From the NCBI GenBank assembly GCA_902765305.1, contig CACWZI010000013.1, forward strand, positions 1-37,164: DNA of 37,164 nucleotides, read 5' to 3'. The translations under genes were made by a program, and so were the position numbers. Shown here one piece after another: positions 97 through 37,107 of the stretch. Numbering within the stretch: position 1 is the first letter of the stretch; every line of letters begins with the position of its first letter. Source of the stretch: an uncultured Eubacteriales bacterium (GTDB lineage Bacteria > Bacillota > Clostridia > Christensenellales > Aristaeellaceae). The notes beneath the pieces were generated by a model, which saw nothing but the letters and a program-made list of their open reading frames with translations, did no database searches and was not told where the DNA came from.

Positions 97-139
97 AGGA
101 AAGTGACTTTGCCCCTAACAGGGAAAGTGACCTTGCCCC
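97..139 (+). repeat. Left-end direct repeats, putative TnsB binding sites
   Basis: Two 19-nt units lie at 97-115 and 121-139, 24 bp apart. Both read GGAAAGTGAC-C/T-TTGCCCC and they differ at only two positions. Each is followed on the inner side by TAACAGGG or ATGACAT. A pair with the same 24-bp spacing lies in inverted orientation at 37065-37107. Paired short repeats just outside tnsA are what TnsB sites look like in Tn7-like elements. The exact transposon terminus outside position 97 cannot be fixed: I see no clear TGT...ACA ends. Positions 1-96 are purine-rich, with a G-rich start and two GGACTTGAA copies at 65-73 and 77-85, and hold no gene. Confidence 0.75.
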
Positions 140-180
140 ATGACATAGTATTTTTTCAAAATGGCGTTTTTGGGAGATTG

Positions 181-208
181 TTGCAATGTACTGAAAACGT
201 CGTAATAT
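181..208 (+). promoter_or_regulatory. Possible tnsABC promoter
   Basis: TTGCAA at 181-186 and TAATAT at 203-208 are separated by 16 bp, in the AT-rich stretch between the end repeats and tnsA. It is a weak sigma-A match and the only reasonable candidate I see. Positions 140-325 otherwise hold no supported gene. Confidence 0.3.
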
Positions 209-325
209 CAGGCATTTTGGCCATTATGCGGGGTTCTCATAAACACGTTTTTGGGGCCCCATTTTTATGCTGGGATTTTCGTAACAATTTGTTTTTTGGG
301 AAATAAAGTACGGGAGACGATGCAG

Positions 326-691
326 ATGCGCAAGAAGAATTATAAGGGACGATGCGAGAAACGTCAGGTTTCAAAATGTGAAGATGTATGCAGAACCTAC
401 GACGCTATCCAACGTGCATATCTGGACAGGCTGGAAGCGAATAGGAATATCAAGTCTATCAGATGCAATGTCACGCTGAAAGGCCCTACAGTGGAAGAAT
501 ATACGACAGACTTTGTCTGTATTCGAGCGGATGGGGAGATGATGGTACGGGAATGTGTATTCCGACGTTTCCTTACCAAGCCATTGACGTTGAAGCTGCT
601 GGATATGTCGCGTGAATACTGGACAAAACTGGGCGTGACAGATTGGGGGATTGTAATCGATGCAGAAAAACAGCCTGTGGGAACGGGATGA
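326..691 (+). CDS. tnsA: TnsA-like transposon endonuclease
   Basis: A 121-residue protein with the TnsA N-terminal nuclease layout. It has a basic Cys-containing start, a helix around YDAIQRAYLDRLE, then the core strand YTTDFVC with the conserved Asp, then MVRECV and LTKP. It ends with a DWGIVID segment. TnsA cuts the 5' strands at the transposon ends and allows cut-and-paste movement together with TnsB. Canonical TnsA has E/Q-x-K after the Asp strand; here the matching place reads E-C-V, with no Lys at that position. The start at 326 is preferred over 320 because GGGAGA at 312-317 gives normal spacing only to 326. The 3' end overlaps tnsB by 32 nt. It lacks the TnsA C-terminal (TnsC-binding) domain of Tn7, so it is a short form. 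Confidence 0.8.
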   Translation: MRKKNYKGRCEKRQVSKCEDVCRTYDAIQRAYLDRLEANRNIKSIRCNVTLKGPTVEEYTTDFVCIRADGEMMVRECVFRRFLTKPLTLKLLDMSREYWTKLGVTDWGIVIDAEKQPVGTG

Positions 692-2489
692 CAGCATCCT
701 GCGTGTGTTGGATGAGCGTGAGAACGAAATGCTGGTGATTGACTGTATCCACCCGGTAATGCCCATGTGGATCAGGAAAGATGAACTGTTGGGTTATACA
801 CAAATCGAAGAATCTGAATTGTGGCCTACTTTCAATGGTATATCACGCGAAGATGATATTCCTGTGGATGCCCAGAGAATCATGAGGGAACGCTTTACCA
901 TCATTACGGGTGTGATTCCCTATATCATGGACAAGGGCAAACGAAGCCAAATGATCGCGCAAGCTGCTTCGGAGCACGGGGTGTGTCGGAAGACTGTGCG
1001 TCATTATCTCTGCCTTTACCTCGCTTATCAGGATGTCACTGTGCTTGCACCCAAAGGCGGTGCTGTGGAGAAAGCACTCAGCGGAGACGAAAAGAACATC
1101 CGCTGGGCGCTGAACAAGTTCTACTACACGAAGAACCGAAACAGCCTGCGGACAGCTTACACGCTGATGCTGAAAGAACGGTATTGTGATGAGGGCGGGA
1201 ATCTATTGCCCGAATACCCCTCCTTCCACCAGTTCCGGTATTTCTACCGCAAGCACAAGAGTCTGCAGGACTACTACATCTCCCGTGAAGGTATAAAACA
1301 GTATCAGCGGGACCACCGGCCCTTACTGGGGGACGGTGTGCAGGAGTTCGCCTCTCATGTGGGTGTGGCCATGCTGGACGCCACCATCTGTGACATCTAC
1401 CTGGTCAACGAGGCCGGCGGGCTGGTGGGTCGCCCCATCCTCACGGCCTGCATCGACGCCTACAGCGGACTGTGCTGTGGCTATACGCTCTCCTGGGAGG
1501 GCGGGACGTACAGCCTGAGAGGGCTCATGCTGAGCGTCATTGAGGACAAGGCGGTGTACTGCAAGCGGTTCGGTATCACGATCGGCGAAGGCCAATGGGA
1601 TTGTGCAGGCATGCTCCCCGGCACGCTGGTGACAGATAAGGGTTCGGAATACGCCTCCCAGAACTTTGAGCAGATCGCGGAGCTGGGCGTCACGGTGGTG
1701 AACCTGCCCGCCTACAGGCCGGAATTGAAGGGCGTGGTGGAGAAGTTCTTCGACCTGATCCAGAGCGCGTTCAAGCCCTACCTGAAGGGCAGGGGCGTCA
1801 TCGAGCCGGACTACCAGGAGCGCGGGGCGCACGACTACAGGAAGGACGCCTGCCTGACCATGGAGCAGTTTGAGAAGGTCCTGCTGAACTGCATCCTTTA
1901 CTACAACGGCAAGCGTATCATCGGGAACTACCCCTACACCGACGATATGCTTGCGCAGGGGGTTCAGCCTAACGCAGTCGCGATCTGGAACTACGGGCGG
2001 AAACAGCCGCCCGCTGACCTGATTCCCGTCTCCCGTGAACAGCTCATCCTCACGCTGCTGCCGCGTACTACGGGCAGGTTCTCACGTTCCGGATTGAAGG
2101 TCAACCAGATGCGCTACAGGCATGACGACTACACCGAACAGTATCTCCAGGGTGGAGAAGCCGTGGTGGCCTATAATCCGGATGACGTGGGTTGCGTGTG
2201 GCTCATCGACCATGGGGCGTATGTGCGCTTCGACCTCATTGAGGGCAGATACGCCGGGAAGGACCTGAACGGTGTGCGGCAGGCACAGGAGAGCCGAAAG
2301 CGGCTGGTCAGGGCGGCGCAGGCGGAAAGCCTTCAAGCCCGAATCGACCTGGCGGATCACATCGAGACCATTGCGGGAACCGCGAAGAAAACCGGCGACA
2401 CCAAGCTGAAGAACATCCGCGGGAACCGCAGCCGGGAGCAGCTTCGGAAGCACAGGGATTACATGAAGGGAGGTACGAAGGATGATTGA
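660..2489 (+). CDS. tnsB: TnsB-like DDE transposase (rve domain)
   Basis: A 609-residue Mu/TnsB-type transposase that joins transposon 3' ends to target DNA. The N-terminal part (about 1-200) has helix-turn-helix-like segments expected to bind the end repeats. The integrase core follows, with the DDE residues visible: D240 in MLDAT, D326 in VTDKGSEY and E361 in ELKGVVEKFF. After it comes a Mu C-terminal-type beta domain (about 460-540) and a basic tail rich in Arg and Lys that probably contacts TnsC. Length is normal for the family. It starts inside tnsA and ends 8 nt inside tnsC, so the three genes form a tightly coupled operon. No internal damage is seen, so the transposase itself looks functional. 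Confidence 0.92.
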   Translation: MQKNSLWERDDSILRVLDERENEMLVIDCIHPVMPMWIRKDELLGYTQIEESELWPTFNGISREDDIPVDAQRIMRERFTIITGVIPYIMDKGKRSQMIAQAASEHGVCRKTVRHYLCLYLAYQDVTVLAPKGGAVEKALSGDEKNIRWALNKFYYTKNRNSLRTAYTLMLKERYCDEGGNLLPEYPSFHQFRYFYRKHKSLQDYYISREGIKQYQRDHRPLLGDGVQEFASHVGVAMLDATICDIYLVNEAGGLVGRPILTACIDAYSGLCCGYTLSWEGGTYSLRGLMLSVIEDKAVYCKRFGITIGEGQWDCAGMLPGTLVTDKGSEYASQNFEQIAELGVTVVNLPAYRPELKGVVEKFFDLIQSAFKPYLKGRGVIEPDYQERGAHDYRKDACLTMEQFEKVLLNCILYYNGKRIIGNYPYTDDMLAQGVQPNAVAIWNYGRKQPPADLIPVSREQLILTLLPRTTGRFSRSGLKVNQMRYRHDDYTEQYLQGGEAVVAYNPDDVGCVWLIDHGAYVRFDLIEGRYAGKDLNGVRQAQESRKRLVRAAQAESLQARIDLADHIETIAGTAKKTGDTKLKNIRGNRSREQLRKHRDYMKGGTKDD

Positions 2490-3387
2490 TGCCAACGCGC
2501 TCATCGGGGCGCTGCCCCGGATGCTGTCCGGGGATGAACTCATGCGGGCGCTGAAGGTGATGCCGGAGTACGACCCCGGCGTATGTGACCGGGATGAGGC
2601 CGTGCGCCTGATGAAGCTGTCGGACCTCTACGATATCTACCTCCCTTCCGCGATGAGCGTGGAGATCTACAGCAAGCTGTATCTCGCGCTCATTCGCAGT
2701 CTCCAGAAAAAGGGCTCCAGGCTGGCCGTCAGGCGGTATGCCGAGAACTACAAGGCGGTGAAACAGCGAGATTACAGCGGCATCCTGGGCGGCTCAGACA
2801 GCTTCACGATCATCGGCACCTCTGGCATCGGCAAGAGCAGCGCCATCTCCAAGGCGATCCGGCTGATCTCCGAAAACAGGGCCATCGAGCTGGAACAGCC
2901 ATGCGCGAAGATCGTGCCCTGTGTGGTGGTGCAATGCCCGTTTGACAGCTCCGTGAAGGGGCTCCTTCTGGAGATCCTGCGACAGGTGGACGAGGAGTTG
3001 GACACCAGGTATTACGACAATGCCGTGAGGGCGAGGGCGACCACGGATATGCTCATCGGCTCCGTGAGCCAGGTGGCGCTGAACCACATCGGGCTGCTGG
3101 TCGTGGATGAGATCCAGCATGTCGTCAACAGCAAGAACGGCAAGACACTGGTGGGCTCCCTGACCCAGCTCATCAACTGCTCCGGCATCTCTATCTGCAT
3201 GGTCGGAACGCCCGACAGCTGCCAGTTCTTCGAGCAGGCCATGCAGCTCGCCCGCCGCTCTCTGGGCCTTCACTACAGTGAATTGCCCTACGACAGGTAC
3301 TTCCGGGAGTTCTGCGGGACGCTGTTCGGCTACCAGTATGTTCGCAACCGGACGGACATTACGGAAGGATTATATGGAGGCGCATAA
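2482..3387 (+). pseudogene. tnsC: TnsC-like AAA ATPase, 3'-truncated
   Basis: An AAA+ ATPase that links target selection to the TnsAB transposase. Walker A is G112-TSGIGKS and Walker B is LLVVDEIQ (D209, E210), followed by a sensor-like MVGTPDS. The frame is healthy up to about 3360 (RNRTDITEG). It then ends in five residues and TAA exactly where sequence resembling the next gene begins. TnsC proteins working with a TnsA-TnsB pair are usually much longer than these 301 residues, so the C-terminal part is missing and no tniQ or tnsD follows. I infer that a deletion, a rearrangement or an assembly join removed the end of tnsC and its downstream partner. The ATPase core is intact, so residual activity cannot be excluded. 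Confidence 0.85.
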
Positions 3388-3415
3388 GCCCGCCGACGGC
3401 TAGCAGTCGCCTGAG

Positions 3416-3655
3416 ATGCCTACCGACGGCCAGCAGCCCGGCGATGGCCAGCAGCCGCCCGAGATGCCTACCGATGGCCAGATGCCCAGCGATGGCCAGC
3501 AGCCGCCCGAGATGCCTACCGATGGTCAGCATCCTACCGACGGCCAGCAGCCGCCCGAAATGCCCACTGACGGTCAGCATCCTACCGACGGCCAGCAGCC
3601 GCCCGAGATGCCTACCGATGGTCAGCAGCCCGGCGACGGCCAGCAGCCGCCCGAA
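3416..3655 (+). repeat. 48-bp coding tandem repeat, five copies
   Basis: Five in-frame 48-nt units at 3416, 3464, 3512, 3560 and 3608 encode variants of MPTDGQxPxDGQQPPE. A degenerate sixth unit follows (MPADGQMPASGQ), and a damaged partial unit precedes at about 3389-3415. The units differ at scattered third positions and at the x residues. Confidence 0.9.
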
Positions 3656-4921
3656 ATGCCCGCCGATGGCCAGATGCCTGCCAGCGGCCAACGCACAGGT
3701 CTGATCGATGAATTGCTGAGCGCGGGCGTTATCACTCAGGAGGAGTACGACGCCATCTCCGCCGCGATGCCCGCAGACAGCCAGATGCCCGGCATGCCCG
3801 GTGAAGGTCAGAATGGTCAGATGCCCGGTATGCCCGGCGACAATACTTCCGCTGAATACAGCGCGGCGGCCACCGTTACTGAGAATGTCGACGGAGCGAC
3901 CTACACATCTTCCACTGACAGCGAAAACGCTGTACTGGTCTCCGGCGACGCGGTCGAAGTGACCCACGCGACGATCACGAAGACCGGCTCCAGCAGCGGT
4001 GAGAGCGCGGACTTCAACGGCGTGAACGCGGCTGTACTGGCCAAGGAAGGCGCGATCCTGTCCATCAGCGATACCACAGTGACCACGGACGGCACCCACG
4101 CCAACGGCGTGTTCAGCTATGGCAGCGGCACCACCGTGAACGTCTCCAACACCACCATCACCACCACCGGCAACAACTCCGGCGGCCTGATGACCACCGG
4201 CGGCGCGACGATGAACGCCGACAACCTGACCGTTTCCACCAGCGGCAATTCCTCCGCGGCGATCCGCTCCGACCGGGGCGGCGGGACGGTGAACGTGACC
4301 AGCGGCACCTATGATACCACCGGCGTGGGCTCTCCCGCGATCTACTCCACCGCCGACATCACAGTATCTGATGCGACGCTGTCTGCGACCAACTCCGAAG
4401 CCGTTGTCATTGAGGGCGGCAATTCTGTCACACTGAACGACGTGGACATCACCGGCTCCAACGCCACGCTGAACGGCCAGAGCACGCAGAAGACCAATGT
4501 ACTGATCTATCAGTCCATGTCCGGCGACGCCAGCGAGGGCAGCTCCTCCTTCACGATGACCGGCGGCGCCATGACCGCAGAGACCGGCAGCATGTTCCAT
4601 GTGACAAACGTCACCACGACGATCACTCTGGAAAACGTGGATTTCACCTATGCCGAGGACAGCAGCGTGTTCCTGGACGCCTCTGCGGATTCCTGGGGCT
4701 CCAGCGGCAAGAACGGCGGCAATGTGACGCTGAACCTGGTGGACCAGGCCATCACCGGCGCGATCACCTCCGACAGCGTGTCCTCGGTGACCGTGAACCT
4801 GGACAGCGGCTCCACCTGGACGCTGACCGGCGACAGCTATGTGACCGCCTTCAATGGAGATCTGAGCAATGTCGACCTGAACGGCTACACCCTGTATGTG
4901 AATGGCGTGGCTGTGAATTAA
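3416..4921 (+). pseudogene. Secreted repeat/beta-helix protein, 5'-truncated
   Basis: The frame holds five 16-residue Pro/Gly/Gln repeats, then a short SHOCT-like helical motif (LIDELLSAGVITQEEYDAIS). A long Thr/Ser/Asn/Gly-rich region (about residues 140-500) follows, with the regular strand spacing of a right-handed parallel beta-helix. Relatives in Clostridia are secreted surface proteins with suspected carbohydrate binding. No signal peptide is present. The reading frame continues upstream of the ATG through another repeat unit that carries TAG (3401-3403) where the repeat has CAG, and then runs into tnsC. No ribosome binding site precedes the ATG at 3416, which lies inside a repeat. I therefore read this as the 3' part of a longer gene that has lost its promoter and signal sequence. 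The beta-helix part is otherwise open to its stop. Confidence 0.75.
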
Positions 4922-4934
4922 ATCATTATACTTA

Positions 4935-4966
4935 CGGGAGAAGTCTCAACGGCTTCTCCCGGTTTT
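4935..4966 (+). terminator. Rho-independent terminator
   Basis: CGGGAGAAG (4935-4943) pairs with CTTCTCCCG (4953-4961), a perfect 9-bp stem with a 9-nt loop, followed by GTTTT. It lies 14 nt after the stop of the beta-helix gene. Confidence 0.85.
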
Positions 4967-5338
4967 CATTTGATAACAGGCTGTCACAGTAATGGGGGCA
5001 TTGTGCTTCTCTCCCTGTTCCGGATATAAAAACTTGGTGCTATCGGATTTTACTTCTGCCAGAACAGAACGGTATCATGCGCTGAGCGCCTTGATAATTC
5101 ATGACGCGATAAATGGACTCCAAATTGCCCCAATCTTCAGAATCCATCCACGGATGCGTTTCCGAGTATTATTGCACATATTGATAAAGAATGCAGACTG
5201 CCCAAAGTTGCAAGGGCGCGGTGACATTGATCCAACGATGCCGGCGACGCTGCTTGATTCCAGCGAAAACAACGCTCGATCCGGCCGGTTTTGTCGCACT
5301 CTCGTGGCGGTATATTCAATTTGGATGCGTTGTGATAA
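4967..5338. other. Intergenic stretch without supported gene
   Basis: About 370 bp between the terminator and the DUF134-NifX promoter. Open frames occur on both strands (for example 4992-5342 plus and the end of a minus frame at 5099). None has a ribosome binding site, a recognisable domain or convincing codon use, and the frames cross the downstream promoter. I call nothing here. Confidence 0.5.
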
Positions 5339-5384
5339 TTGACATATGCCAATAAATGTGCTATTATGCTTCTGACATATGTCA
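5339..5384 (+). promoter_or_regulatory. Promoter with two palindromic operators (copy 1)
   Basis: TTGACA (5339-5344) and TATTAT (5362-5367) are 17 bp apart. TGACATATGCCA (5340-5351) overlaps the -35 box. The perfect palindrome TGACATATGTCA (5373-5384) covers the expected transcription start. The same design precedes the paralogue at 18039. Two half-site-matched palindromes flanking the -10 box suggest repression by a dimeric regulator, possibly the DUF134 protein itself (inference). Confidence 0.7.
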
Positions 5385-5401
5385 GGAAAAGGAGGTGCGT
5401 T

Positions 5402-6127
5402 ATGGCCAGAACACCCAGATGCCGACGCATACGCGGCTACCCGGATTACTGGAGCTTTGCACCGCAGGATGAAGGGCGGGCGGAGGTCATTGAAATGACG
5501 CTCGACGAATACGAGTGCATACGGCTGATGGATCGGGAGAAGTAGACACAGGAGCGATGTGCAGAGTGCATGGGCGTGGCCCGCACCACCGTCACCAACA
5601 TCTATGAGAGCGCCCGGAGCAAGCTGGCCGAAGCGTTGGTGGAGGGAAAGATCCTGCGCATCGGCGGCGGCAGCTATCAGCTGGAGAATCAGGGAACGGG
5701 GCGAATCGACTTGAAAGGAGCGAACACCATGAGAATCGCGGCAACCTATGAGAACGGAGAGATCTTTCAGCACTTTGGACATACGGAGCAGTTCAAGCTC
5801 TATGATGTTGAAAACGGCGCCATCGTCAACACGCAGATCGTGGACTCCAACGGCAGCGGCCACGGGATGCTGGCGGGCTTTTTAAAGGAAGCCCAGGTGG
5901 ACGCGCTGATCTGCGGCGGCATCGGCATGGGCGCGCAGATGGCGCTGAATGAGGCGGGAATCCGGCTGTACGCTGGGGTGCAGGGTTCCGCGGACGCGGC
6001 GGCGAAGGCCCTTGCGGAGGGAACGCTGAATTACGACCCTGACGCCCGCTGCGATCATCATGGGCACCACCACGGCGGCGACTGCGGCCATGACCACTGT
6101 GCGGAGCATCATTGCAGCGGGAATTGA
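5402..6127 (+). pseudogene. DUF134-NifX fusion, interrupted by TAG
   Basis: The frame codes for a DUF134 helix-turn-helix domain (about 1-100), a dinitrogenase iron-molybdenum cofactor (NifX/NafY-like) domain (about 110-215) and a His/Cys-rich metal-binding tail ([17 protein letters not shown]). Codon 48 is TAG (5543-5545); the intact paralogue at 18039 has Leu there. The frame is otherwise open on both sides, so this is one point lesion. The start at 5402 follows AAAGGAGG (5388-5395). The proteins are thought to bind Fe-S or Mo-Fe clusters and to work with Mrp-type carriers, but the exact substrate is unknown. The NifX part could still be made from the internal start at 5729. The GNAT gene begins 3 nt after its stop. 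Confidence 0.8.
5729..6127 (+). CDS. NifX/NafY-like cluster-binding protein (internal ORF)
   Basis: A 132-residue reading frame within the interrupted fusion gene, starting [10 protein letters not shown], with its own AAAGGAG at 5714-5720 and 8-nt spacing to ATG 5729. It holds the complete Nitro_FeMo-Co fold (pattern [10 protein letters not shown], then [12 protein letters not shown]) plus a 20-odd residue His/Cys tail likely to bind metal. The equivalent ATG in the paralogue (18369) also follows a Shine-Dalgarno-like AAAGGA, so separate translation of this domain may be an ancestral property rather than a result of the nonsense codon. Whether it is really expressed cannot be told from sequence. 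Confidence 0.6.
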
Positions 6128-6130
6128 GCT

Positions 6131-6670
6131 ATGGCAAACATCACACTTGTTCCGCTGGCTCCTGATGACAGAAACCAATTCATACTGGATAATCAAGAGG
6201 CATTCAATTACGGTGCATTGGAAGAATTCGGTCGCCGCGACGACCACTTCGAAGAAGAGGGAGAAATCATCTCCCGAGAGACCATTGAAAAGTCCATTGA
6301 TGGCGGCGAGGCCTATCGAATCATGCAGGACGGGCGGCCTGTCGGCGGCGTCGTTATCAGGGTGGACGGTGCGCGGGGCGATCTTGATCTTTTGTTTGTC
6401 TCCCCCAGAGCGCACAGCAAGGGCATCGGCTATGCCGCCTGGTGCGCGGTGGAACAACTGCATCCGGAAGTAACGGTATGGGAAACGGTCACGCCTTACT
6501 TTGAGAAACGGAATATTCACTTCTACGTCAATCGGTGTGGGTTCCACATTGTCGAGTTCTACAACAGCCACCATCCCGATCCCAACGATCCCGATGCCGG
6601 GCAGCAAATGGATGAACAGTTCCCGGACGGTATGTTTCGGTTTGAAAAGAGGATGAATCCCTCGTTTTAG
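6131..6670 (+). CDS. GNAT-family N-acetyltransferase
   Basis: A 179-residue GNAT fold protein predicted to move an acetyl group from acetyl-CoA to an amine. Motif A is seen as LDLLFVSPRAHSKGIGYAAW, whose KGIG provides the pyrophosphate loop. The beta5 and C-terminal strands are WETVTPYF and FYVNRCGFHIVEFY. The substrate is unknown. It starts 3 nt after the NifX stop and is thus probably co-transcribed from the 5339 promoter. The C-terminus (HHPDPNDPDAGQQMDEQFPDGM) is long and acidic, as in GNAT proteins seen widely in Firmicutes. No damage is visible. Confidence 0.85.
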   Translation: MANITLVPLAPDDRNQFILDNQEAFNYGALEEFGRRDDHFEEEGEIISRETIEKSIDGGEAYRIMQDGRPVGGVVIRVDGARGDLDLLFVSPRAHSKGIGYAAWCAVEQLHPEVTVWETVTPYFEKRNIHFYVNRCGFHIVEFYNSHHPDPNDPDAGQQMDEQFPDGMFRFEKRMNPSF

Positions 6671-6794
6671 GTAACAGGCGCGACACCCTTTCAACCTTCC
6701 GCACCGCGCGGCGCTTTGACGGGGTGTTGCGTATTCCGATAAGCATGTCCACGATGCCGAAATAATATACCGCACGATAAGGGCGCAATCCGCT

Positions 6795-7982
6795 TCAATC
6801 TCCATGTTCTTTGACAGCGCTGTTGGTCAGCAAGACGAGGGAAACGATCAGCACCAACGGGAACACTCCGCCGGCCAGCATGCCGGCTTGCAGATTGTCG
6901 CCAGCCCGCTGGCTCACCGCGCCCACCAGGCTGGGGGCGATCGCGCCGCCCAGGTCTCCGGCCATGGCCAGCAGCGCGAAAAGCGCGGTCCCGCCCCGAG
7001 GCAGGCGCGGCGATATGACGCTGATGGTTCCCGGCCACATGATGCCCACGGAAAAGCCGCACAGCACGCAGCCGATCAGCCCCAGCACAGGATTTCTGGC
7101 CAGGGAAGCCAGCAAATAGCAGCACAGGCACAGCAGTCCGGAGCCGATCATGTAGCGCGTCAGGTCGATCCTCGCGCCGAATCTGCCGTAGATAACCCGG
7201 CTGACGCCCATGGCCGCCGCGAACAGGCAGGGACCCGCCAGATCGCCCACCGCCTTAGGGAAGCCGAGCGCCGCTTCGGCGTAGGCGGAGGCCCATTGGG
7301 CCATGCCCATCTCCGACGCCCCGGCGCAGACCATCAGCAGGATGGCCAGCCAGAACAGCGGCGTTCTCAGCAGCTGCCCGATGGTCATGCCCTCGCCATC
7401 CTCCGTCAGTCTCTCGATGGGGCAGGTGGCGAAGTTATAGATGTTGTAAAGCGGGATCAGCGCCCACAGGCAGGCCAGTATCCGCCAGGAGCCGATGCCA
7501 AACGCCGTGAAGAAGAGCGAGGACAGCAGGATGACGCCCACGGAGCCCCAGCAATAGAAGGAATGCAGCAGGCTCATGACCGCCTCCTTGTGGTCGAAGG
7601 GGCACGCCTCCACGATGGGACTGACCAGCACCTCGATCAGGCCGCTGCCGACAGCGTAAAGAATAGCGCAGACGATGATGCCCGCAAAGGGGTTCGGACA
7701 CAGATCCGGCACGAAGGCCAAACCGATCAGCCCCAGCGCGGAGACGACCTCGGAAGCGACCACGCTCCTTCTGTAGCCGATGGCGTCCACAAATCTGGCG
7801 CAGAACACGTCCACCACCAGCTGGGTGAAGTAGAACGTCGTGGATATCAGGGCGATCCGGCCCAGGGGAATGCCGTAATCGGCATGGAACCTGAGAAACA
7901 GGAGCGGCGCGAAATTTGCCGCGATGGCCTGTGTAATGAACCCCAGATAGCAGGCCCGCAGGGTTCTTTGGTAGTTCTTCAT
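6795..7982 (-). CDS. MFS transporter
   Basis: A 395-residue major facilitator with about 12 hydrophobic helices. It begins MKNYQRTLRACYLGFITQAI, and helix 2-3 carries the loop DAIGYRRSVVASEV, matching the MFS motif A position. A second motif-like loop FGARIDLTRY starts the C-terminal half. Its distribution resembles sugar/fucose-permease-like or drug-type MFS members of Clostridia; the substrate cannot be called. The start at 7982 is preferred over the upstream in-frame ATG because GGGAG lies 10 nt before it and the preceding gene stops one base away (TAG at 7984-7986). That arrangement indicates translational coupling with the small hypothetical gene. Confidence 0.88.
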   Translation of the reverse strand: MKNYQRTLRACYLGFITQAIAANFAPLLFLRFHADYGIPLGRIALISTTFYFTQLVVDVFCARFVDAIGYRRSVVASEVVSALGLIGLAFVPDLCPNPFAGIIVCAILYAVGSGLIEVLVSPIVEACPFDHKEAVMSLLHSFYCWGSVGVILLSSLFFTAFGIGSWRILACLWALIPLYNIYNFATCPIERLTEDGEGMTIGQLLRTPLFWLAILLMVCAGASEMGMAQWASAYAEAALGFPKAVGDLAGPCLFAAAMGVSRVIYGRFGARIDLTRYMIGSGLLCLCCYLLASLARNPVLGLIGCVLCGFSVGIMWPGTISVISPRLPRGGTALFALLAMAGDLGGAIAPSLVGAVSQRAGDNLQAGMLAGGVFPLVLIVSLVLLTNSAVKEHGD

Positions 7983-7983
7983 T

Positions 7984-8262: not shown

Positions 8263-8264
8263 AT

Positions 8265-8321: not shown

Positions 8322-8372
8322 GAAAATACCTCCCTTGGCGGTCTTGTATTGCAAGCGTTCGCCTCGGAAGGT

Positions 8373-8401: not shown

Positions 8402-8449
8402 TGCACATAGTTGCCATTTCATTGAACGATATTCCCAATTGCGAAAAGC

Positions 8450-29422: not shown

Positions 29423-29456
29423 TTGATTACCTCCTGTTTCGCTCCGTGGTTTTGTA

Positions 29457-30215
29457 TTACAGCGCTATCTCTTCCATGAGCACGGGAATCCTGCAGGCGA
29501 CCGTCACGCCGTATTTCGCGTCAAGGTAGTCCGCGAAGGCCCGGGGATTCCCCGGATTGTCGGCGAACATATCCCAGTGGCCGGGGATGACCAGGCCGGC
29601 TCGAAGCTCGCCCGCGAGATCGACTGCCTCCTGGAACGTCATGTTCCCGATGCAATCGCGGCGATACCGAGCGCCGTCCCTTCCGTTGATCGGCAGCAGC
29701 GCTGCGTCGATGGGACCGAAGGCTTGCAGCAGCGGCAGCATGCCCTCGTAGCGCAGGGTATCGCCCGCATGATAGATTCGCTTTCCGCTGCCCTCGATGA
29801 TGTATTGCAGGCAGGGATAGCGGCCTTCGCCGTCCGGCGAGAGGAATTCATGGGCCGCAGGGATGGCGTGGATCGTGATATCCCCGATTTGCACACACTG
29901 TCCCGCGTCTATGGGCAGCAGTTGCTCTTCAGGAATGCCATCTCCGAGAATCGACTGCCGGTGGATAGACGGGAAAACAAACCTTGCCTTTGGACAGTTT
30001 GATGCCCAAATCCGCCATGCGCCACGGTCGATGTGATCCAGATGATCGTGCGTCCCCACAAATCCATCGATGTCCTTCACTTCTCCGGCGGGAACCGGGG
30101 CGTTGGTTGTGCGTCCCGGACAGTTAGAGGCGAAGTAATCGACGAGGATGGTCGTTCTGCCCATCCGGATTCGCAAGCCCATCTGGCCGAGCCATGCGAT
30201 GGAAACAAGCGACAT
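29457..30215 (-). CDS. Metallo-beta-lactamase-fold hydrolase, UlaG-like
   Basis: A 252-residue MBL hydrolase. The metal site is THDHLDH (H56, H58, D60, H61); IYHAGDTLRYEG, LLPINGRDGARY and VIPGHWDMFADN are family signatures of the UlaG/L-ascorbate-6-phosphate lactonase branch. These hydrolyse lactones or phosphodiesters of sugars. No export signal. The start follows the nitroreductase stop by 4 nt. Intact. Confidence 0.9.
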   Translation of the reverse strand: MSLVSIAWLGQMGLRIRMGRTTILVDYFASNCPGRTTNAPVPAGEVKDIDGFVGTHDHLDHIDRGAWRIWASNCPKARFVFPSIHRQSILGDGIPEEQLLPIDAGQCVQIGDITIHAIPAAHEFLSPDGEGRYPCLQYIIEGSGKRIYHAGDTLRYEGMLPLLQAFGPIDAALLPINGRDGARYRRDCIGNMTFQEAVDLAGELRAGLVIPGHWDMFADNPGNPRAFADYLDAKYGVTVACRIPVLMEEIAL

Positions 30216-30219
30216 CGGA

Positions 30220-30744
30220 TCACACCCTCACGATATAATCGGCCTTTCTCGGCTTCGCCACGGGCTGCTCGCAGGCCGCGTAGCCCAGGGCAATGGATGC
30301 TACGCCTGTCAGCGTTTCGGGCAGCCCCCACTGCTTCAGCAGCGCCTTGCCCTCCGGCAGCTCGAACATCTGCTTGCAGCGGTGGATCCAGCAGGAGCCG
30401 AGGCCGACGGCATAAGCCGCGTTCAGCATATTCGTGCAGACCGCCGCGCCGTCCAGCTCGTGGGTCACGCAGGCCTGCGTCTCAAAGACGAGCAGTATGG
30501 TCGGCGCGCCGTAGTAGGGATGGGCGGCGGGATTGTTCAGCACCTTCGCGTTTAGCGCGTCCACCGCGGCGACGTTTTCCGGGCTCTGCACGGCGACGAT
30601 CTGCACGCCCTGGGTGCCCGCGCCGGTGGGGGCGTAGGTGCCCGCCTCCAGCACGGCGTTCAGCGCTTCATCGGCGATCTGGTCGGGTTTGTAGGCGCGG
30701 ATGGCGCGGCGATTCTTCAATACTTCCAATGCTTCAAGCTTCAT
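30220..30744 (-). CDS. Nitroreductase family flavoprotein
   Basis: A 174-residue FMN protein. LKNRRAIRAYKPDQIADEAL is the N-terminal FMN-binding signature, TYAPTGAGTQGVQIVAV the second loop, and GLGSCWIHRCKQMF the conserved C-terminal FMN loop. It reduces nitro or quinone compounds or flavins with NAD(P)H. The start at 30744 follows AGGAGG. A 142-bp gap to the upstream reductase makes a separate promoter possible, but I see none that is clear. Confidence 0.9.
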   Translation of the reverse strand: MKLEALEVLKNRRAIRAYKPDQIADEALNAVLEAGTYAPTGAGTQGVQIVAVQSPENVAAVDALNAKVLNNPAAHPYYGAPTILLVFETQACVTHELDGAAVCTNMLNAAYAVGLGSCWIHRCKQMFELPEGKALLKQWGLPETLTGVASIALGYAACEQPVAKPRKADYIVRV

Positions 30745-30886
30745 GAAGAGATTCCTCCTGTTGTGTGTTTGGACGATGGGATTGCGCAGGTCAGAGGTGA
30801 ACAATCAGTGTAGAGCAGGATGACAGGAATCGGAGTAAAACGTCTTGCATGGATGCTCGGCGGGCCTTCGGTCAATCTGTTCTCCG

Positions 30887-31981
30887 TTACTCCAATGCTG
30901 CCGCGCACTGCTTGAGGTATTCGATGATGCCCAACTGCTGCGGACAGGCAGCCTCGCACTGTCCGCACTGGATGCAGTCGCTGGCCTTCGCGCCGGAGCG
31001 GGTCTCCCAGGCGTAGTTCTTCCGGGCTTCGTCCAGCTGGCCGAAAATCATCTGCCGGTTCATGGCACCGAAGATATCCGGAATAGGGATGGACATGGGA
31101 CAGCCCGGAACGCAGTAGCGGCAGCCCGTGCACTGTATGGAGGCCACAGCGTCCAGGGCCTCCTGAGCACGCCTGATGACAGCCTGTTCTTTCTCATCAA
31201 GAGGCTTGAAATCCGCCATGAAGGAAAGATTGTCCTTCATCTGTGCCACGTTGCTCATGCCGCTGAGCACGGCCAGCACATCGTCCAGTGACGCTGCGTA
31301 GCGGATCGCCCAGCCCGCAGGGCTAAGGGACGGGTTGGCAGCGGTGAGAATATCCTTTACGAAAGCAGGCGGATCCGCCAGTGTGCCACCCTTGACGGGC
31401 TCCATGATGGTGACCGGCTTATCGTGCTTCCGCGCGACCTCCCAGCAGCGCCGGGACTGCACGCGGGGATTGTTCCAGTCGGCGTAATTGATTTGCAGCT
31501 GCACGAATTCCACCTCCGGATGGGCGGACAGAAGCTCGTCCAGCAGCTCCGGGGAGCCGTGGAAAGAAAAGCCGACGTGCCTGATCTTCCCGGCGGCCTT
31601 CTGCTCCCGGACGAAATCCCACAGGCCATAGAACTCGTATCGCTTGTAGTTGTCGCCCACGCCGGAGAGGGCGTGGAGCAGGTAGTAGTCGAAATAGTCC
31701 GCCTGGGTTCGCTCCAGGCTGGTGAGCAGCTGCGCCCTTGCGTCCTCGGAGCTCTTGGCGACGCGGGCATTCAGCTTGGTGGCGAGAGTGTATTTCTCCC
31801 GTGGATAGCGCTTCACCAGCGCCTCGCGGGTCGCCTCCTCGGAGCCCTCATAGACGAAGGCCGTGTCAAAATAGGTGCCGCCCGCGGCGATGAACAGGTC
31901 AACCATGGTTTTGACCTGCTCAATATCGATCGCGCCGTTTTCCAGCCTGGGCAGCCGCATCAGTCCAAAACCCAACTTCAA
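30887..31981 (-). CDS. Aldo/keto reductase with 4Fe-4S C-terminal domain
   Basis: A 364-residue paralogue of the 26334-27458 gene. The tetrad is D39 (TYFDTAFVY), Y44, K69 (ATKLN) and H103 (YLLHALSG). The tail has CTGCRYCVPGCP and CIQCGQCEAACP. The start is TTG at 31981: AAGGAGG lies 8 nt before it and no ATG fits the frame nearby. It is 42 nt downstream of the iron alcohol dehydrogenase, the first gene of the MerR-controlled operon, so it is among the genes most directly tied to that promoter. Confidence 0.88.
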   Translation of the reverse strand: MKLGFGLMRLPRLENGAIDIEQVKTMVDLFIAAGGTYFDTAFVYEGSEEATREALVKRYPREKYTLATKLNARVAKSSEDARAQLLTSLERTQADYFDYYLLHALSGVGDNYKRYEFYGLWDFVREQKAAGKIRHVGFSFHGSPELLDELLSAHPEVEFVQLQINYADWNNPRVQSRRCWEVARKHDKPVTIMEPVKGGTLADPPAFVKDILTAANPSLSPAGWAIRYAASLDDVLAVLSGMSNVAQMKDNLSFMADFKPLDEKEQAVIRRAQEALDAVASIQCTGCRYCVPGCPMSIPIPDIFGAMNRQMIFGQLDEARKNYAWETRSGAKASDCIQCGQCEAACPQQLGIIEYLKQCAAALE

Positions 31982-32023
31982 ATGGCATCTCCTCCTTGAG
32001 AGTGCATCAACAGGTGTGGTAAT

Positions 32024-33199
32024 TTACAACATAAGCCGGTAGATGTTCGCGCAATCCTCCTCGTTCAGGGTGGTGAAGCCGGAGAGGAGGCCCGTGCGGC
32101 CATTGCCGCGACACAGGGAGTCCACCAGCTTGGGGATGTCCTCCTCCTTCGCCCCCAGTTCGGCGAAATTCTTCGGCATGCCGATGGAGATGAAGAAGCA
32201 ACGCAGGGCCTCGATGCCCGCCTTCGCGGTGACCTCGGGGTGGGCGAAGTCCATCTGGCAGCCCCACACCCGCACGGCCACCTTCGCAAAGCGCATCACG
32301 TCGTGATTCATCACATAGGTGAAGTTGGCCGGCAGCGTCACCGCCAGGCCAGCGCCGTGGGCGCAATCGTACAGCGCGGACAGCTCGTGTTCGATGTCGT
32401 GGCTGGTCCAGTCCTGGCTGCGGCCCACGCCCACGGCGTTGTTGTGGGCCATCATGCCCGCCCACATGATGTTGGCGCGGGCTTCGTAGTTGTCCGGGTC
32501 CGCAATTACCCGCGGGCCCTCGTGGATCATGGTCAGAAGCAGCGCCTCGATCAGCCGGTCGGTGACCTCCACCTCCTTGGTGTTGGTCAGGTACCGCTCG
32601 TAAAGGTGCGCCATGATGTCCGTGATGCCGCAGGCGGTCTGGTAGGGCGGCAGGGTCTGGGTCAGCGCCGGGTTCAGTATGGAGAACTTTGGGCGGATGG
32701 CGTCGCCGGTGGCCCCGCGCTTGAACATACCGTTTTCGTTGGTAATGACGGAATCCGGGCTGCCCTCGCTGCCTGCTGCCGCGATGGTCAGTATGGTGCC
32801 GATGGGCAGGGCCCTGTCGATGTACTTGCCGCAGTAGAAGTCCCAGAAGTCGCCCTCGTGCACCACGCCCGCGGCGATGGCCTTGGAGGAGTCGATGGTG
32901 CTGCCGCCGCCCACGGCCAGCACGAAGTCCACGCCCTCGCGCTTGCACAGGTCGATGCCCTGGTACACCAGGCCGCTCCTGGGATTCGGCTTCACGCCGC
33001 CCAGCTCCACGTAGGGGATGGCCTCGGCCTCAAGGGACGCCTTGACCCGGTCCAGCAGGCCGGAGCGCACCACGCTGCCGCCGCCGTAGTGGATCAGCAC
33101 CTTCGTTCCGCCGAAGCGCTTCACCAGCGCGCCGGCGTCCTGTTCGCGGTCCTTGCCGAAGGCAAAATAGGTGGGGGAGTAGAAATTGAAATTGTTCAT
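32024..33199 (-). CDS. Iron-containing alcohol dehydrogenase
   Basis: A 391-residue Fe-ADH of the YqhD/BdhA (butanol dehydrogenase) type, which reduces aldehydes with NADPH. The dinucleotide loop is VLAVGGGSTIDSSKAI. Metal ligands are D194 and H198 (GITDIMAHLYE), H267 (DWTSHDIEHEL) and H281 (YDCAHGAGLA). Length is typical. It is the first gene after the 19-bp-spacer promoter, and AAAGGAGG precedes the ATG. Together with a divergent MerR regulator this resembles aldehyde-responsive units such as AdhR-adhA of Bacillus. Confidence 0.93.
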   Translation of the reverse strand: MNNFNFYSPTYFAFGKDREQDAGALVKRFGGTKVLIHYGGGSVVRSGLLDRVKASLEAEAIPYVELGGVKPNPRSGLVYQGIDLCKREGVDFVLAVGGGSTIDSSKAIAAGVVHEGDFWDFYCGKYIDRALPIGTILTIAAAGSEGSPDSVITNENGMFKRGATGDAIRPKFSILNPALTQTLPPYQTACGITDIMAHLYERYLTNTKEVEVTDRLIEALLLTMIHEGPRVIADPDNYEARANIMWAGMMAHNNAVGVGRSQDWTSHDIEHELSALYDCAHGAGLAVTLPANFTYVMNHDVMRFAKVAVRVWGCQMDFAHPEVTAKAGIEALRCFFISIGMPKNFAELGAKEEDIPKLVDSLCRGNGRTGLLSGFTTLNEEDCANIYRLML

Positions 33200-33261
33200 G
33201 GAATGGCCTCCTTTTGTCGATTGCGATTGACATATGAAGGGATCTACTGTAAGATATCGAT

Positions 33262-33292
33262 ATTATAGAGCTTAAAGTTACCTCTAAGTCAA
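33262..33292 (-). promoter_or_regulatory. MerR-type promoter with 19-bp spacer and operator
   Basis: On the minus strand, TTGACT (33292-33287) and TATAAT (33267-33262) are 19 bp apart, the long spacing typical of MerR-activated promoters. The spacer holds the inverted repeat CTTAAAGTTACCTCTAAG (33271-33288), much like operators of the AdhR-type MerR regulators. It drives the alcohol dehydrogenase operon. The divergent merR start is at 33327. Confidence 0.82.
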
Positions 33293-33326
33293 TAGATCAA
33301 TTCAAAAAAACAATCCGGAGGGAAAC

Positions 33327-33740
33327 ATGTATACAATCCACGAGGTTTGCGAGAAATCGGGCTTGACGGCGCATACGCTTCGCTATTATGAAAAAGAAGG
33401 GCTTCTGTCCAATGTGAGCAGGAGCCAGGGCGGGTTCCGCCAGTATTCCGATGAAGATTTGGAAGCCGTTGGGCTGATCTGCTGCCTGAAGAATACGGGT
33501 ATGCCACTGTCGGACATAGCGAGGTTTATGGAATTGACCCGCGAGGGCGACCAGACGCTTCGGGAGCGATGCGAGATGCTGAAAAGGCATAAGGAGGTCG
33601 TTTTGGGGAGAATGTCGGAGATGGAGCGTCACCTGGAAAAGGTCACGCATAAGCTCGATCATTTTTCAAGTAAGCTTTCGGAATATGAGAAAAGAACAAA
33701 GCCGGGCAATTTGAACGAGACAGACTTATTCGGTGTGTAG
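33327..33740 (+). CDS. MerR-family transcriptional regulator
   Basis: A 137-residue MerR protein. The winged helix-turn-helix begins MYTIHEVCEKSGLTAHTLRY and continues with GLLSNVSRSQGGFRQYSDED, followed by a long coiled-coil helix (about 85-125) for dimerisation. There is no Cys-rich metal loop. The C-terminus is short, as in aldehyde- or electrophile-sensing members. The gene is divergent from the Fe-ADH operon with the operator between them, so it most likely activates that operon and its own expression. GGAGG lies 6 nt before ATG. Confidence 0.92.
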   Translation: MYTIHEVCEKSGLTAHTLRYYEKEGLLSNVSRSQGGFRQYSDEDLEAVGLICCLKNTGMPLSDIARFMELTREGDQTLRERCEMLKRHKEVVLGRMSEMERHLEKVTHKLDHFSSKLSEYEKRTKPGNLNETDLFGV

Positions 33741-33758
33741 ACAACGGAGGGTTATACC

Positions 33759-34784
33759 ATGCTTACCTATGTCGTCGTGGGATCGGGCTACCGGGCGGAA
33801 TACTTCGGGCGCATCGCCCGGACGTGGCCGGAGCTGTTCAGGACCTGTTACCTGTGCCGCTCGGAAGAGAAGGCGGCGCGGATGCGCGCGAGCACCGGCG
33901 CGGAGGCCGTGCTGACCGCCGAGGCGGCGATGGCCTTCCAGCCGGACTTCGTCGTTGTGGCGGTGGATCGGGGCCATGTGGCCGATGTCGCGGAGGAGTG
34001 GATCGGGCGCGGCTATCCCGTGGTGGCGGAGACGCCCGTGGGCGACACCGAGGAGAAGCTGCAAAGGCTGGAGGCGCTGGCCGGGCGCGGCGCGAAGATC
34101 GTCTGCTGCGAGCAGTACCACCGCTATCCCATCCTCGCCGCGGGTCTGGAGGCCGTCCGGCGGGGCGACATCGGGACGCCGCAATCCGCCTATATCTCCC
34201 TGGCCCACGATTATCACGCCGCCAGCCTGCTGCGCAGGGCGCTGATAATCGGCGGGGAGCGCTATGAAATGCGTGGCGTCCGTTCCGTCGGTCCCGCCGT
34301 GAACACCGATTCCCGCTACGGGGCGATCCTGGACGGCTCCGCGACCGGGGAGGTCCGGGATCGGGTGATGATCGACTATGAATCCGGCAAAACCGCGATC
34401 TACGACTTCGCGCCGCTGCAATACCGATCCTATATCCGCTCGCGCCACTTCACCGTGCGCGGCGATCGGGGCGAGTGGAGCGACACGACGGTATACGGCC
34501 TGGATGGGCGGAACGCGCCCTGCAGGACGGCGCTGATGCCGGAACTGCCGGAGCGCTACCGCTGCCTGGACACCCAGTACCTGCGGGACCTGCGCAAGAC
34601 CTGGCGGCCGGAGCTGTTCCTCGATACCCTCCAGGATGAATACGCCATCGCCACGATCCTCCTGGACATGGGGGACTGCCTGCGGGGCGGGGAATCTCCC
34701 TATCCGCTGTGGGAGGCCGTCGAGGACGCCCGGTTCTGGCTGAGATTGCAGGAGGCGGTCGGGGCCTCCGACGCAAGGCATTGA
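33759..34784 (+). CDS. Gfo/Idh/MocA-like oxidoreductase
   Basis: A 341-residue protein with a Rossmann start (MLTYVVVGSGYRAEYFGRIA) and the family pattern VAETPVGDTEEKL in place of the usual EKPL. A C-terminal alpha/beta domain follows. It would oxidise or reduce a sugar or polyol with NAD(P). Two features are unusual: the catalytic Lys of EKP is replaced (ETP), and CEQYHRYP follows at the next conserved position. The function is therefore less sure. It is 18 nt after merR and 19 nt before the ACT-MBL gene. Confidence 0.8.
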   Translation: MLTYVVVGSGYRAEYFGRIARTWPELFRTCYLCRSEEKAARMRASTGAEAVLTAEAAMAFQPDFVVVAVDRGHVADVAEEWIGRGYPVVAETPVGDTEEKLQRLEALAGRGAKIVCCEQYHRYPILAAGLEAVRRGDIGTPQSAYISLAHDYHAASLLRRALIIGGERYEMRGVRSVGPAVNTDSRYGAILDGSATGEVRDRVMIDYESGKTAIYDFAPLQYRSYIRSRHFTVRGDRGEWSDTTVYGLDGRNAPCRTALMPELPERYRCLDTQYLRDLRKTWRPELFLDTLQDEYAIATILLDMGDCLRGGESPYPLWEAVEDARFWLRLQEAVGASDARH

Positions 34785-34803
34785 TCGGAAGGGGGGCGAG
34801 CCT

Positions 34804-36243
34804 GTGAAGAAGACCTATATCACCACCATGCCCAACCACATCGGCGCGTTCTTGAAGGCGAGCGAGTGCTTTGCGGAGCTGGGCGTGAACATCACCCGCG
34901 TGAGCTACAACAAGGCCGTGGATTCCCACACGCTGTTCATCGACGCCGAGGGCGGCGAGGACCAGCTGCGGGAAGCGGACGCGCGGCTCCAAAGCATCGG
35001 CTATCTCAAGACCTCCGGGGATGAGAAGGGCATCGTGCTGCTGGAGTTCCACCTGAAGGATGTGCCCGGCAGCGTCACGGCGGTGCTGCGCCTGATCCAT
35101 GAGTTCCAGCTCAACATCTCTTACATCAGCTCCCAAGAGAACGGCACGGACTACCAGGCGTTCAAGATGGGCCTGTTCGTGGAGGACGCGGAAAAGCTGC
35201 GGGCCTTCCTGGACCGGGTGGAATCGCTGTGCCCGGTGCGCGTGATCGACTACAATCACTCGGAGCGGGTCTACGACAACAGTATCTTCTATCGCTCCTT
35301 CGTGTCGGGGCTGATGCAGACCATGGGCCTGCCGGAGGACAGCCGGGACGGGCTGCTGGTCAATTCCAATCTCGTCATGCAGATGCTGGACGAGAAGGGC
35401 CTGTCCCCCTACAAGACCTTCGAGAGCATCGGGCGGTTCGCGGAGCTGCTGGCCGTGTGCCGGGGCGGCGCGTTTTCCCCGCGCATCACCCGGCACGGCA
35501 TCACCGAAAACACCGAGGTCACGTTGATCGAGCCGCCCTGCGGCAGCAACACCGCCATCCTGCAAAGCTGCGGCGAGACGCTGTTCATCGACTGCGGATA
35601 CGCGCTCTACCGGGAGGAGATGGAGGCGATCTTCCGCCGCGTCCTGCCGGATTGGGACGGCATGGCGAAGCGCATCTTCATCACCCACGCGGACGTGGAC
35701 CACTGCGGCCTGCTGCCCCTGTTCGACGAGGTGCTCGCCAGCGAAAAGACCAGGGCGTGCCTCGCGCTGGAATACGCCGGCAAGCCGGGCTTCCGGGAGC
35801 AGAACCCGTTGCACCGGCCCTACATCAGCATCTGCAAGACGCTGACGGGCTATCGGCCGCCGGACCCGGACAAGGTGCGCGGCCTCTGGGACGCCCGCGG
35901 CGAACAGGCGGAGGCGCTGGAGCAGATCGGCTTTTTCCGGTTCGGGGAATTGAACTTTGAAGTCTACCAGGGCAAGGGTGGCCACCTGCCGGGCGAGACG
36001 GTGCTGATCGACTATGCCCACCACATCGCCTTCACCGGCGACATCTTCATCAACATGCGCGGCATGACCCGCGAACAGGCGGCCTACAACCAGTACGCGC
36101 CGGTGCTGATGACCTCGGTGGACACCGACCCCGCGCTGTGCGCCGAGGAGCGCCGGGCCATCGTGCAGCGCCTGGGCGCGGGGAAGTGGCAGGTGTTCGG
36201 CGCCCACGGCATGAAGAAGGATTACCAGGTACAGGCAGAATAA
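34804..36243 (+). CDS. ACT-ACT-metallo-beta-lactamase fusion protein
   Basis: A 479-residue protein in three parts. Residues about 1-70 and 75-150 each look like ACT ligand-binding domains (ITTMPNHIGAFLKASECFAE and LEFHLKDVPGSVTAVLRLIH). Residues about 220-475 form a metallo-beta-lactamase hydrolase with THADVDHCG (H295, D297, D299, H300), ALEYAGKPGF and HHIAFTGDIF. ACT domains usually bind amino acids, so the hydrolase may be controlled by one. The start is GTG at 34804 after a G-rich ribosome binding site. No damage is seen. The substrate is unknown. Confidence 0.85.
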   Translation: MKKTYITTMPNHIGAFLKASECFAELGVNITRVSYNKAVDSHTLFIDAEGGEDQLREADARLQSIGYLKTSGDEKGIVLLEFHLKDVPGSVTAVLRLIHEFQLNISYISSQENGTDYQAFKMGLFVEDAEKLRAFLDRVESLCPVRVIDYNHSERVYDNSIFYRSFVSGLMQTMGLPEDSRDGLLVNSNLVMQMLDEKGLSPYKTFESIGRFAELLAVCRGGAFSPRITRHGITENTEVTLIEPPCGSNTAILQSCGETLFIDCGYALYREEMEAIFRRVLPDWDGMAKRIFITHADVDHCGLLPLFDEVLASEKTRACLALEYAGKPGFREQNPLHRPYISICKTLTGYRPPDPDKVRGLWDARGEQAEALEQIGFFRFGELNFEVYQGKGGHLPGETVLIDYAHHIAFTGDIFINMRGMTREQAAYNQYAPVLMTSVDTDPALCAEERRAIVQRLGAGKWQVFGAHGMKKDYQVQAE

Positions 36244-36259
36244 AGAGGAGGATGCTGTT

Positions 36260-36670
36260 ATGTATAAAGTCAAGGGCAAGTGGGCGCTGATCACCGGCGC
36301 GGCGCGGGGTATCGGTTATCTGACGGCATAATTCATGGCCTCACAGGGCTGCAACCTGATCCTGCACAGCAGGGATTTAAAGCACACGGAAAAGGTGCTT
36401 TCAGAGGTTCAGGACATGGGCGTTAGCGCGCGAGCTGTGGCTGCCGATCTGAACGATCTTACAGCGGTGGAACGGATGCTTGGCGAAATCGACGCCATGG
36501 GCGTCCAGGTGGACATCGTTTTGAACAACGCGGGCCTGCAGATCGCCTATCGGACGGACTATCTTACTACGCCACCCTCCGATTATGAGATCAGCTTTCG
36601 GGTAAACACCATCGCGCCCGCGATGATCATCCCCAACAGTGTAGCACAGCTCTTGGAGAGGAGCTTTTAA
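36260..36670 (+). pseudogene. Short-chain dehydrogenase, in-frame TAA and 3'-truncated
   Basis: MYKVKGKWALITGAARGIGY is an SDR Rossmann start with TGxxxGxG, followed by TAA at codon 24 (36329-36331), then FMASQGCNLILHSRDLKHTE in the same frame, and NNAG at VLNNAGLQ. It ends at 36670 after 136 codons without the Ser-Tyr-Lys catalytic region, whereas SDRs are about 250 residues. AGAGGAGG precedes the ATG. The 3' loss lies where the AT-rich right-end region begins, so it may have been cut by insertion or deletion of the mobile element. Confidence 0.82.
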
Positions 36671-36738
36671 ACTACTACTCTATAATACGAGGGTATCCCA
36701 TGAAGCCGGATTACAAGAACTGGATAGGGCCTGCCAAG

Positions 36739-36794
36739 TATAATAGTTATTGACAAATGGCAGAAGCAATATAATGCGGATCGCAGTTAGATAA
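36739..36794 (+). other. Decayed third copy of NifX-type promoter and start
   Basis: TATAAT (36739-36744), then the operator-like TGACAAATGGCA (36751-36762), then ATG 36774 opening MRIAV before a stop at 36792-36794. Five residues match the NifX start MRIAVTYENG, and the motif matches TGACAAATGTCA of copy 2. It is short, so chance is possible. Confidence 0.4.
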
Positions 36795-36824
36795 GAAGAA
36801 GCTATTTAAGGGTGAAATGAAATA

Positions 36825-36980
36825 GTGGACAATTCGAACAGAAAAAGCTTGAAATCTGAATGCTTCATGTATTATAATAACAGTAAGATATACTCAATCG
36901 GAGTTTTTCAGTATCATGGTGATACTGTTTTGATACTGGAAAAGCCTGAAAAGGTGTGCAGGAGAAGGAATATAAATTAA
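36825..36980 (+). CDS. Possible small ORF near right end, 51 residues
   Basis: GTG 36825 opens 51 codons in the AT-rich end (MDNSNRKSLKSECFMYYNNS, then KIYSIGVFQYHGDTVLILEK). A weak AGGGTG lies upstream. Strand pattern and charge look protein-like, and base composition is unlike the neighbouring cargo. A hairpin CAGTATCA-TGG-TGATACTG lies within it (36909-36927) and is followed by TTTT, so an RNA feature is also possible. Confidence 0.35.
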   Translation: MDNSNRKSLKSECFMYYNNSKIYSIGVFQYHGDTVLILEKPEKVCRRRNIN

Positions 36981-37064
36981 TAAAGATATGAAATAAATAT
37001 ACAGATAATTAAATTGAGATATTGATAGAAATATCTTGTCGAGTGGGAATAGCAGTCATGTCAA

Positions 37065-37107
37065 AGGGCAATCTCGTTTTCCCTGTTTGGGGCAAAATAG
37101 TTTTCCC
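37065..37107 (-). repeat. Right-end direct repeats, putative TnsB binding sites
   Basis: Read on the minus strand, units at 37107-37089 (GGGAAAACTATTTTGCCCC) and 37083-37065 (GGGAAAACGAGATTGCCCT) match the left-end units at about 14 of 19 positions. They have the same 24-bp spacing and the same inner flank TGACAT. The arrangement is an inverted copy of 97-139, as expected for the other end of one element or of a close relative. Positions 36671-37064 otherwise hold only the two small candidates listed, and 37108-37164 holds nothing I can name. Confidence 0.72.

Follow-up and report, generated by a model that had tools for sequence, protein, structure and literature searches.

A mini-element with Tn7-like ends at guaA, adjoined by a tns operon with a reduced tnsA

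We analysed a 37,164-nucleotide stretch of an uncultured Eubacteriales bacterium (the window, which is the entire contig C13 of source genome G000; 3.88 Mb, 177 contigs), and found that the two repeat pairs near its edges belong to a short mini-element, named M here. Both arrays of TnsB-like sites face outward, the left one being the distal part of an M copy and the right one the proximal part of another. In the reading we favour, to which we give about an even chance, the pairs are the outer ends of two M copies of approximately 594 bp in the same direction, and M serves a Tn7-like transposase as its substrate, inserts at the guaA 3' end and moves mainly by copying. Genomes, contigs and loci are labelled G, C and L, and 28 genomes of the genus formed the comparison set. 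The sites and the two parts of M in the window were as follows:

1-145, no strand: distal (b) part of an M copy, terminus TGACA at 141-145, contig edge inside M
97-115, minus strand: inner TnsB-like site of the b end, single-site scan score 22.6
121-139, minus strand: outer TnsB-like site of the b end, score 24.4
37059-37164, no strand: proximal (a) part of another M copy, terminus TGTCA at 37059-37063, contig edge inside M
37065-37083, plus strand: outer TnsB-like site of the a end, score 23.3
37089-37107, plus strand: inner TnsB-like site of the a end, score 25.9

The four repeats were real and well beyond chance. A 49-bp end matrix gave 56.6 and 59.8 for the window pairs, and the top score of 20 window shuffles was 14.7; the matrix was trained on both window ends and five other ends, so these scores are partly by construction. 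The sites of each pair were spaced 24 bp apart, and units from the two ends agreed at 13-14 of 19 positions, close to the approximately 14/19 given in the initial annotation. The same annotation had read TGACAT as an inner flank of the repeats, but this string contains the element terminus TGACA, with TGTCA as its counterpart at the other edge. A second genomic copy (G000:C22:89804-89948, minus strand) aligned with window 1-145 at 99% and the match ended at 145, which means that element sequence continues outward past the left pair but not inward of it, and the right edge behaved likewise. The final 99 bases of the window were the final 99 bases of C19 and, reversed, of C22, and identity stopped at exactly 99, a pattern that would be expected of an assembly break at a repeat.

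C22 joins both kinds of window edge in one stretch, and from C19 and C22 combined M was read as a 594-bp unit: TGTCA is followed by a pair of 19-bp sites with 24-bp spacing, a stem-loop and T run recognised by eye and, after approximately 300 bp, a G-rich tract, the inverted site pair and TGACA. No genes were recognised within M, and like a miniature inverted-repeat transposable element it is short and non-coding, has inverted ends and is present in several copies; whole or partial M was found in 10 of the 28 genus genomes. CGTTC stands beside M on both source contigs, C19 reading guaA...CGTTC and then M, and C22 reading M and then CGTTC. A 603-bp M in G152 (C150) begins 6 bp past the guaA stop and has AAAAC on both flanks, while the M of G167 C45 has imperfect duplications and occupies a site whose empty form follows two other guaA genes. 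Judged from such sites, M moves by itself.

Two side observations concern the body of M. Just inside the distal end, the first 35 bases of the window are G-rich and could form a G-quadruplex, and many M copies keep this tract. On C156 of G158 (L094:19150-20000) two M ends meet as b-GGAGT-a, like a tandem insertion, and the first M is broken by an apparent IS3-type element.

M, with both of its ends, lies at guaA. Among 20 proximal ends in the genus and G096, a count that leaves out more distant relatives (IMG/VR loci), 15 sit 6-7 bp past the guaA 3' core GAGTGGGARTRR, 8 of these at guaA-like genes and the remainder at isolated core copies. The ends away from the core were those of G108 C26, G108 C52, G158 C156 (two) and G169 C20; L158, which is not part of this count, has M after a gene read by eye as ppdK. 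The genus genomes carry several guaA-like genes each, with recurring flanks. The window itself has an isolated core copy close to its right edge:

36920-36937, no strand: TGATACTGTTTTGATACT repeat (TGATACT type), like repeats near other guaA-core sites
37041-37052, plus strand: copy of the guaA 3' end core, GAGTGGGAATAG, outside any guaA gene

We rejected the idea that the isolated core copies are random mimics, because integrase islands known at guaA are marked by this core too. In the available text of the respective reports, GAGTGGGAATAAT is the att core of the integrase island GIflu-1 at guaA (PMC13418153), Tn5801 uses the guaA 3' end with an 11-bp repeat (PMC4844618), and what occupies guaA is an integrase island rather than Tn7 (GIsul2/Tn6591, PMC8239412). 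These islands share the use of the guaA 3' end with M, but have an integrase and a core duplication instead of a 5-bp duplication. The available text of the literature searched, including PMC8649781 and PMC10293859 (where "GMP synth" is also absent), made no mention of guaA as a Tn7-type target. TniQ/TnsD would be the protein that picks guaA, and the placement of M suggests that guaA is a Tn7-type target shared with integrase islands.

Downstream of the guaA-like genes (L112-L140, up to four matches per genome) at least four kinds of flank were seen, including flanks that have a TGATAC-type repeat and flanks that adjoin a tyrosine integrase. The guaA of C19 (L102:18116-19804) contains an in-frame short repeat, RREASPLG in the protein, which also stands four times in tandem in an upstream reading frame (L102:16629-17159) and has related copies beside M on C22; it looks like a protein-invading repeat.

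The tnsABC(D) operon lies outside M, next to its distal end, and tnsA does adjoin the left pair, as the initial annotation had noted. The operon features of the window were as follows:

146-319, plus strand: tnsA leader, outside M, the junction being TGACA and then TAGTATTTTT
320-691, plus strand: tnsA, 123 aa, nuclease domain alone
660-2489, plus strand: tnsB, 609 aa, Mu-transpos_C 21.5 bits against a cut-off of 21.7
2482-3387, plus strand: tnsC, truncated, TniB 2.3e-14

The Tn7-like identity proposed earlier held up, with a TnsA-type nuclease fold, a DDE-type transposase, a TniB-like TnsC, paired sites and 5-bp duplications, and with TniQ/TnsD in relatives. D240, D326 and E361 of TnsB were invariant across four aligned sequences, and we assign them as the putative DDE triad. 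Homology of the window tnsC to the intact tnsC of G167 and G168 ends at 3365/3367, and no TniQ/TnsD gene was seen after the truncated tnsC in the window. Relatives that look intact have a tnsC of 411-419 aa and a TniQ/TnsD of 379-488 aa, with TniQ profile (PF06527) matches of 2.9e-15 in G168 and 1.5e-11 in G519.

A DNA match to the tns stretch was found in at least six of the 28 genus genomes (the window's genome, G108, G166, G167, G168 and G170), a lower bound because 10 candidates were scored per genome. Each of the six carriers had a single locus with M followed by TAGTA leading into tnsA; the M-leader junction of the window was the same in G167 C6 and G108 C50, and was found as TAGTAC in G168 C33, G170 C35 and G166 C105. 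The flank before M, readable in four carriers, was CTCCG, GTACT, CTCCA and AGTCA, none of them equal to TAGTA. A constant junction on one side with a varying flank on the other argues that the operon is bound to the outside of M, and that M and operon arrived together at different target flanks. In 6/6 genus carriers the site arrays enclose M rather than tns, with a short downstream side in G108, G166, G168 and G170.

G168 and G108 C50 have GTCCC-type sites, and the N-terminal part of TnsB in both differs from that of the window (48% identity over residues 2-75 for G108), while the tnsB of G168 has 93% DNA identity to that of the window from window base 1086 onward. End sites therefore vary together with the N-terminal part of TnsB, which supports the repeats as probable TnsB sites. 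As a side reading of G168 (L099:12772-13200 against window 660-1085), the first approximately 142 TnsB residues and the M end sites differ jointly and the remaining TnsB is nearly identical, which may represent an exchange of a specificity module in TnsB.

The TnsA of this clade ends after the nuclease domain. Its predicted fold matched Tn7 TnsA in Foldseek (1t0f_A, TMq 0.74; 1f1z_A, TMq 0.75), and PF08722 was found in 7 of 11 clade proteins at E values up to 1, the window's own copy giving no match. Fifteen clade TnsA were recovered, of which 11 were aligned by MAFFT alongside three ordinary TnsA proteins; inspection by eye showed the remaining four to be alike. At the catalytic residues, which we take to be E63, D114, Q130 and K132, all 11 had Glu replaced by Gln (Met in G519), Asp kept, Gln replaced by Glu, and Lys replaced by Val or Ile. 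hhalign offsets the last catalytic column by one, where F, Y, Q, E or S is found, and Lys was absent from the column in both placements. Nuclease activity is predicted to be lost in the clade TnsA. According to the available text of two reports, systems defective in TnsA yield mainly cointegrates with a duplicated transposon and inserted backbone (PMC8188705), and point mutations in tnsA block cut-and-paste and leave replicative transposition (PMC8649781).

In the copying route that we favour, TnsB would nick only the 3' strands at the ends of M and TnsA would no longer cut the 5' strands. M would be copied from a tns-carrying donor, giving the order target with target-site duplication (TSD), M, donor, M and TSD, and the window would be donor DNA whose tns operon has decayed, with a direct copy of M on either side. 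Such a model predicts that the TAGTA donor junction is constant and the target flanks variable, that M is present in two direct copies, that ends face outward at both edges of the donor contig, and that the outer duplications are equal. These predictions fit, including CGTTC on C19 and C22, but the window joins pass through the M repeat. Because two M edges of each kind, proximal and distal, were found in the source genome (all 17 candidates were scored), both C19-M-C13-M-C22 and C19-M-C22 plus a closed C13-M can be drawn. Under the former joining, M-window-M would be a unit of approximately 38 kb with CGTTC on both sides, and the ends of such an element would lie outside the window. A further proposal, which we offer tentatively and think rather doubtful, is that a guaA-homing Tn7-like branch has been turned inside out: a non-coding cassette of approximately 0.3-0.6 kb would hold both ends, tnsABCD and cargo would be donor backbone outside it, and a nuclease-dead TnsA would make cointegration normal, with the entire backbone going in between two direct copies of the cassette.

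Several results weigh against copying as the main route. Perfect 5-bp duplications were found in 2 of the 6 tns-free M copies with both flanks readable (G152 and C19/C22), and no matching duplication was found around the tns-free copies G108 C26, G108 C52 and G169 C20, in which both flanks were read. No single contig showed M-tns-M with matching outer duplications, and no circular donor was seen, since a search of 72,556 plasmids and 50,697 phages for close relatives gave nothing above 60% identity. In G170 C1, 95 bp of tnsA leader (L083:1084-1178) survive as a remnant where M and tns are both absent. For TnsA, the column of the lost Lys is placed differently by the two alignments, an invariant Arg lies close to that position in the clade, and the ordinary TnsA of Paraburkholderia used for comparison has Arg for the Lys. 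Window 27.5-33.7 kb was rejected as specific cargo, as its genes occur piecemeal in 28/28 genus genomes. Finally, C13 carries the two M halves that are less conserved (AAAGGG; GGGAAAAAGG) and C19/C22 carry the two consensus halves, a distribution that favours the joining C19-M-C22 plus a closed C13-M.

Under that joining, C13 with M would be a closed circle or tandem copy (an excised island) and C19-M-C22 a separate lone M insertion, and the resulting order core-AGTCA-M-TAGTA-tns would have flanks matching those of G166 C105. But C13 has no tyrosine integrase, no replication gene was present among the window genes sampled, and the copy number is inferred from contig edges alone. We consider this explanation improbable. 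A stronger competitor, a real possibility at less than even chance, is that TnsB represses tnsABCD through the inverted b sites before tnsA, which would act as an operator inside an ordinary element with an unseen far end, and that lone M copies come from mistaken use of b as an end. Relatives down to 49% TnsB identity (L153) retain a b array immediately ahead of a TAGTA- or TGGTG-type leader, and in prototypic Tn7 the tns promoter lies within an end. However, neither 105 kb of G167 C6 (49-bp matrix and single 19-bp sites; downstream, the single-site scan gave four weak sites against three in a shuffle) nor approximately 15 kb of G519 contained a further end pair, and no consensus promoter was found on the plus strand of window 1-400. 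The matrix search for a distal end of the tns-bearing element covered 354,817 bases, and the contigs of carriers other than G167 end within approximately 19 kb. The initial annotation had drawn one Tn7-like element of about 37 kb between the four repeats, a picture that has inverted pairs at both ends and tns genes by one of them on its side. We rejected it on terminus direction and second copies and hold it to be very improbable: the termini point outward, the sequence outside the pairs is element, the second copy ends at 145, the flanks TAGTA and AGTCA do not match, and no target duplication is present just outside 97 or 37107. Its own hedge, that the ends belong to two related elements, was right, as they are two M copies cut by contig edges.

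The M-tns layout extends beyond the genus. G096 from the same family has a like layout, and G519 from another family of the order has one beside guaA, without the TAGTA junction. By eye, 5 of 10 IMG/VR loci were similar (L150, L153, L154, L157 and L158); L149, L155 and L156 were too short, L152 had the leader without a visible array, and L151 was ambiguous. An end search in eight IMG/VR records gave an a-b pair before tnsA in G541, one end in G538, none in four, and outward ends on both sides, like the window, in G535 (35 kb) and G537 (122.8 kb). One serine-resolvase-like gene adjoins M in L151 and a second belongs to the G519 cargo (by eye); such genes would suit a copying element.

At the right edges of L151, L157, G535 and G537, a sigma-70-like promoter (by eye) lies approximately 30 bp before the proximal M end and is followed by AAGGT; in L157 and G535, GACCTTG inside M could pair with AAGGT, which suggests transcript folding across the end. 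Near tns in L160 (G519) and L170/L171 (G535) we also saw RloA/RloB-like and resolvase-like genes by eye, and an FtsK/SpoIIIE protein, a helicase, a DUF932 protein and a GmrSD-type protein by profile.

We regard the system as a new variant of Tn7-like elements. It shares with Tn7 and Tn7-like TnsABCD systems TnsB, TnsC, TniQ/TnsD, a TnsA-fold protein, paired TnsB-like sites, a 5-bp duplication and insertion just 3' of a conserved gene, but here the tns operon lies outside the ends, TnsA is a nuclease domain only with catalytic residues replaced, and the target is guaA. Tn5053/Tn402 elements have TGTCA-type ends, and like type V-K CRISPR-associated transposons they form cointegrates, as the system here would; both lack tnsA, whereas a reduced tnsA is kept here. 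The Tn3-derived TIME/TIME-COMP units, as far as the available text describes them (PMC13367494), are likewise short non-coding mobile units of which two copies can flank other DNA, but their transposase family differs, and in the present system one copy has the transposase genes attached to it. A boundary finder for Tn7-like elements pairs inverted-repeat arrays in the intergenic stretches either side of tnsB, according to the available text of its report (PMC8649781). A branch with both ends together before tnsA could escape such a finder or have its boundaries drawn in the wrong direction, as happened here. Should the copying route hold, the system shows an element losing cut-and-paste while retaining a TnsA relic, and would be an example from nature of a whole backbone inserted at a site that a protein selects.

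The window genes sampled (ten in one profile scan, and others) were metabolic, regulatory, transport or unassigned. At 36261-36670 there is a short-chain dehydrogenase gene interrupted by a stop codon near 36330.

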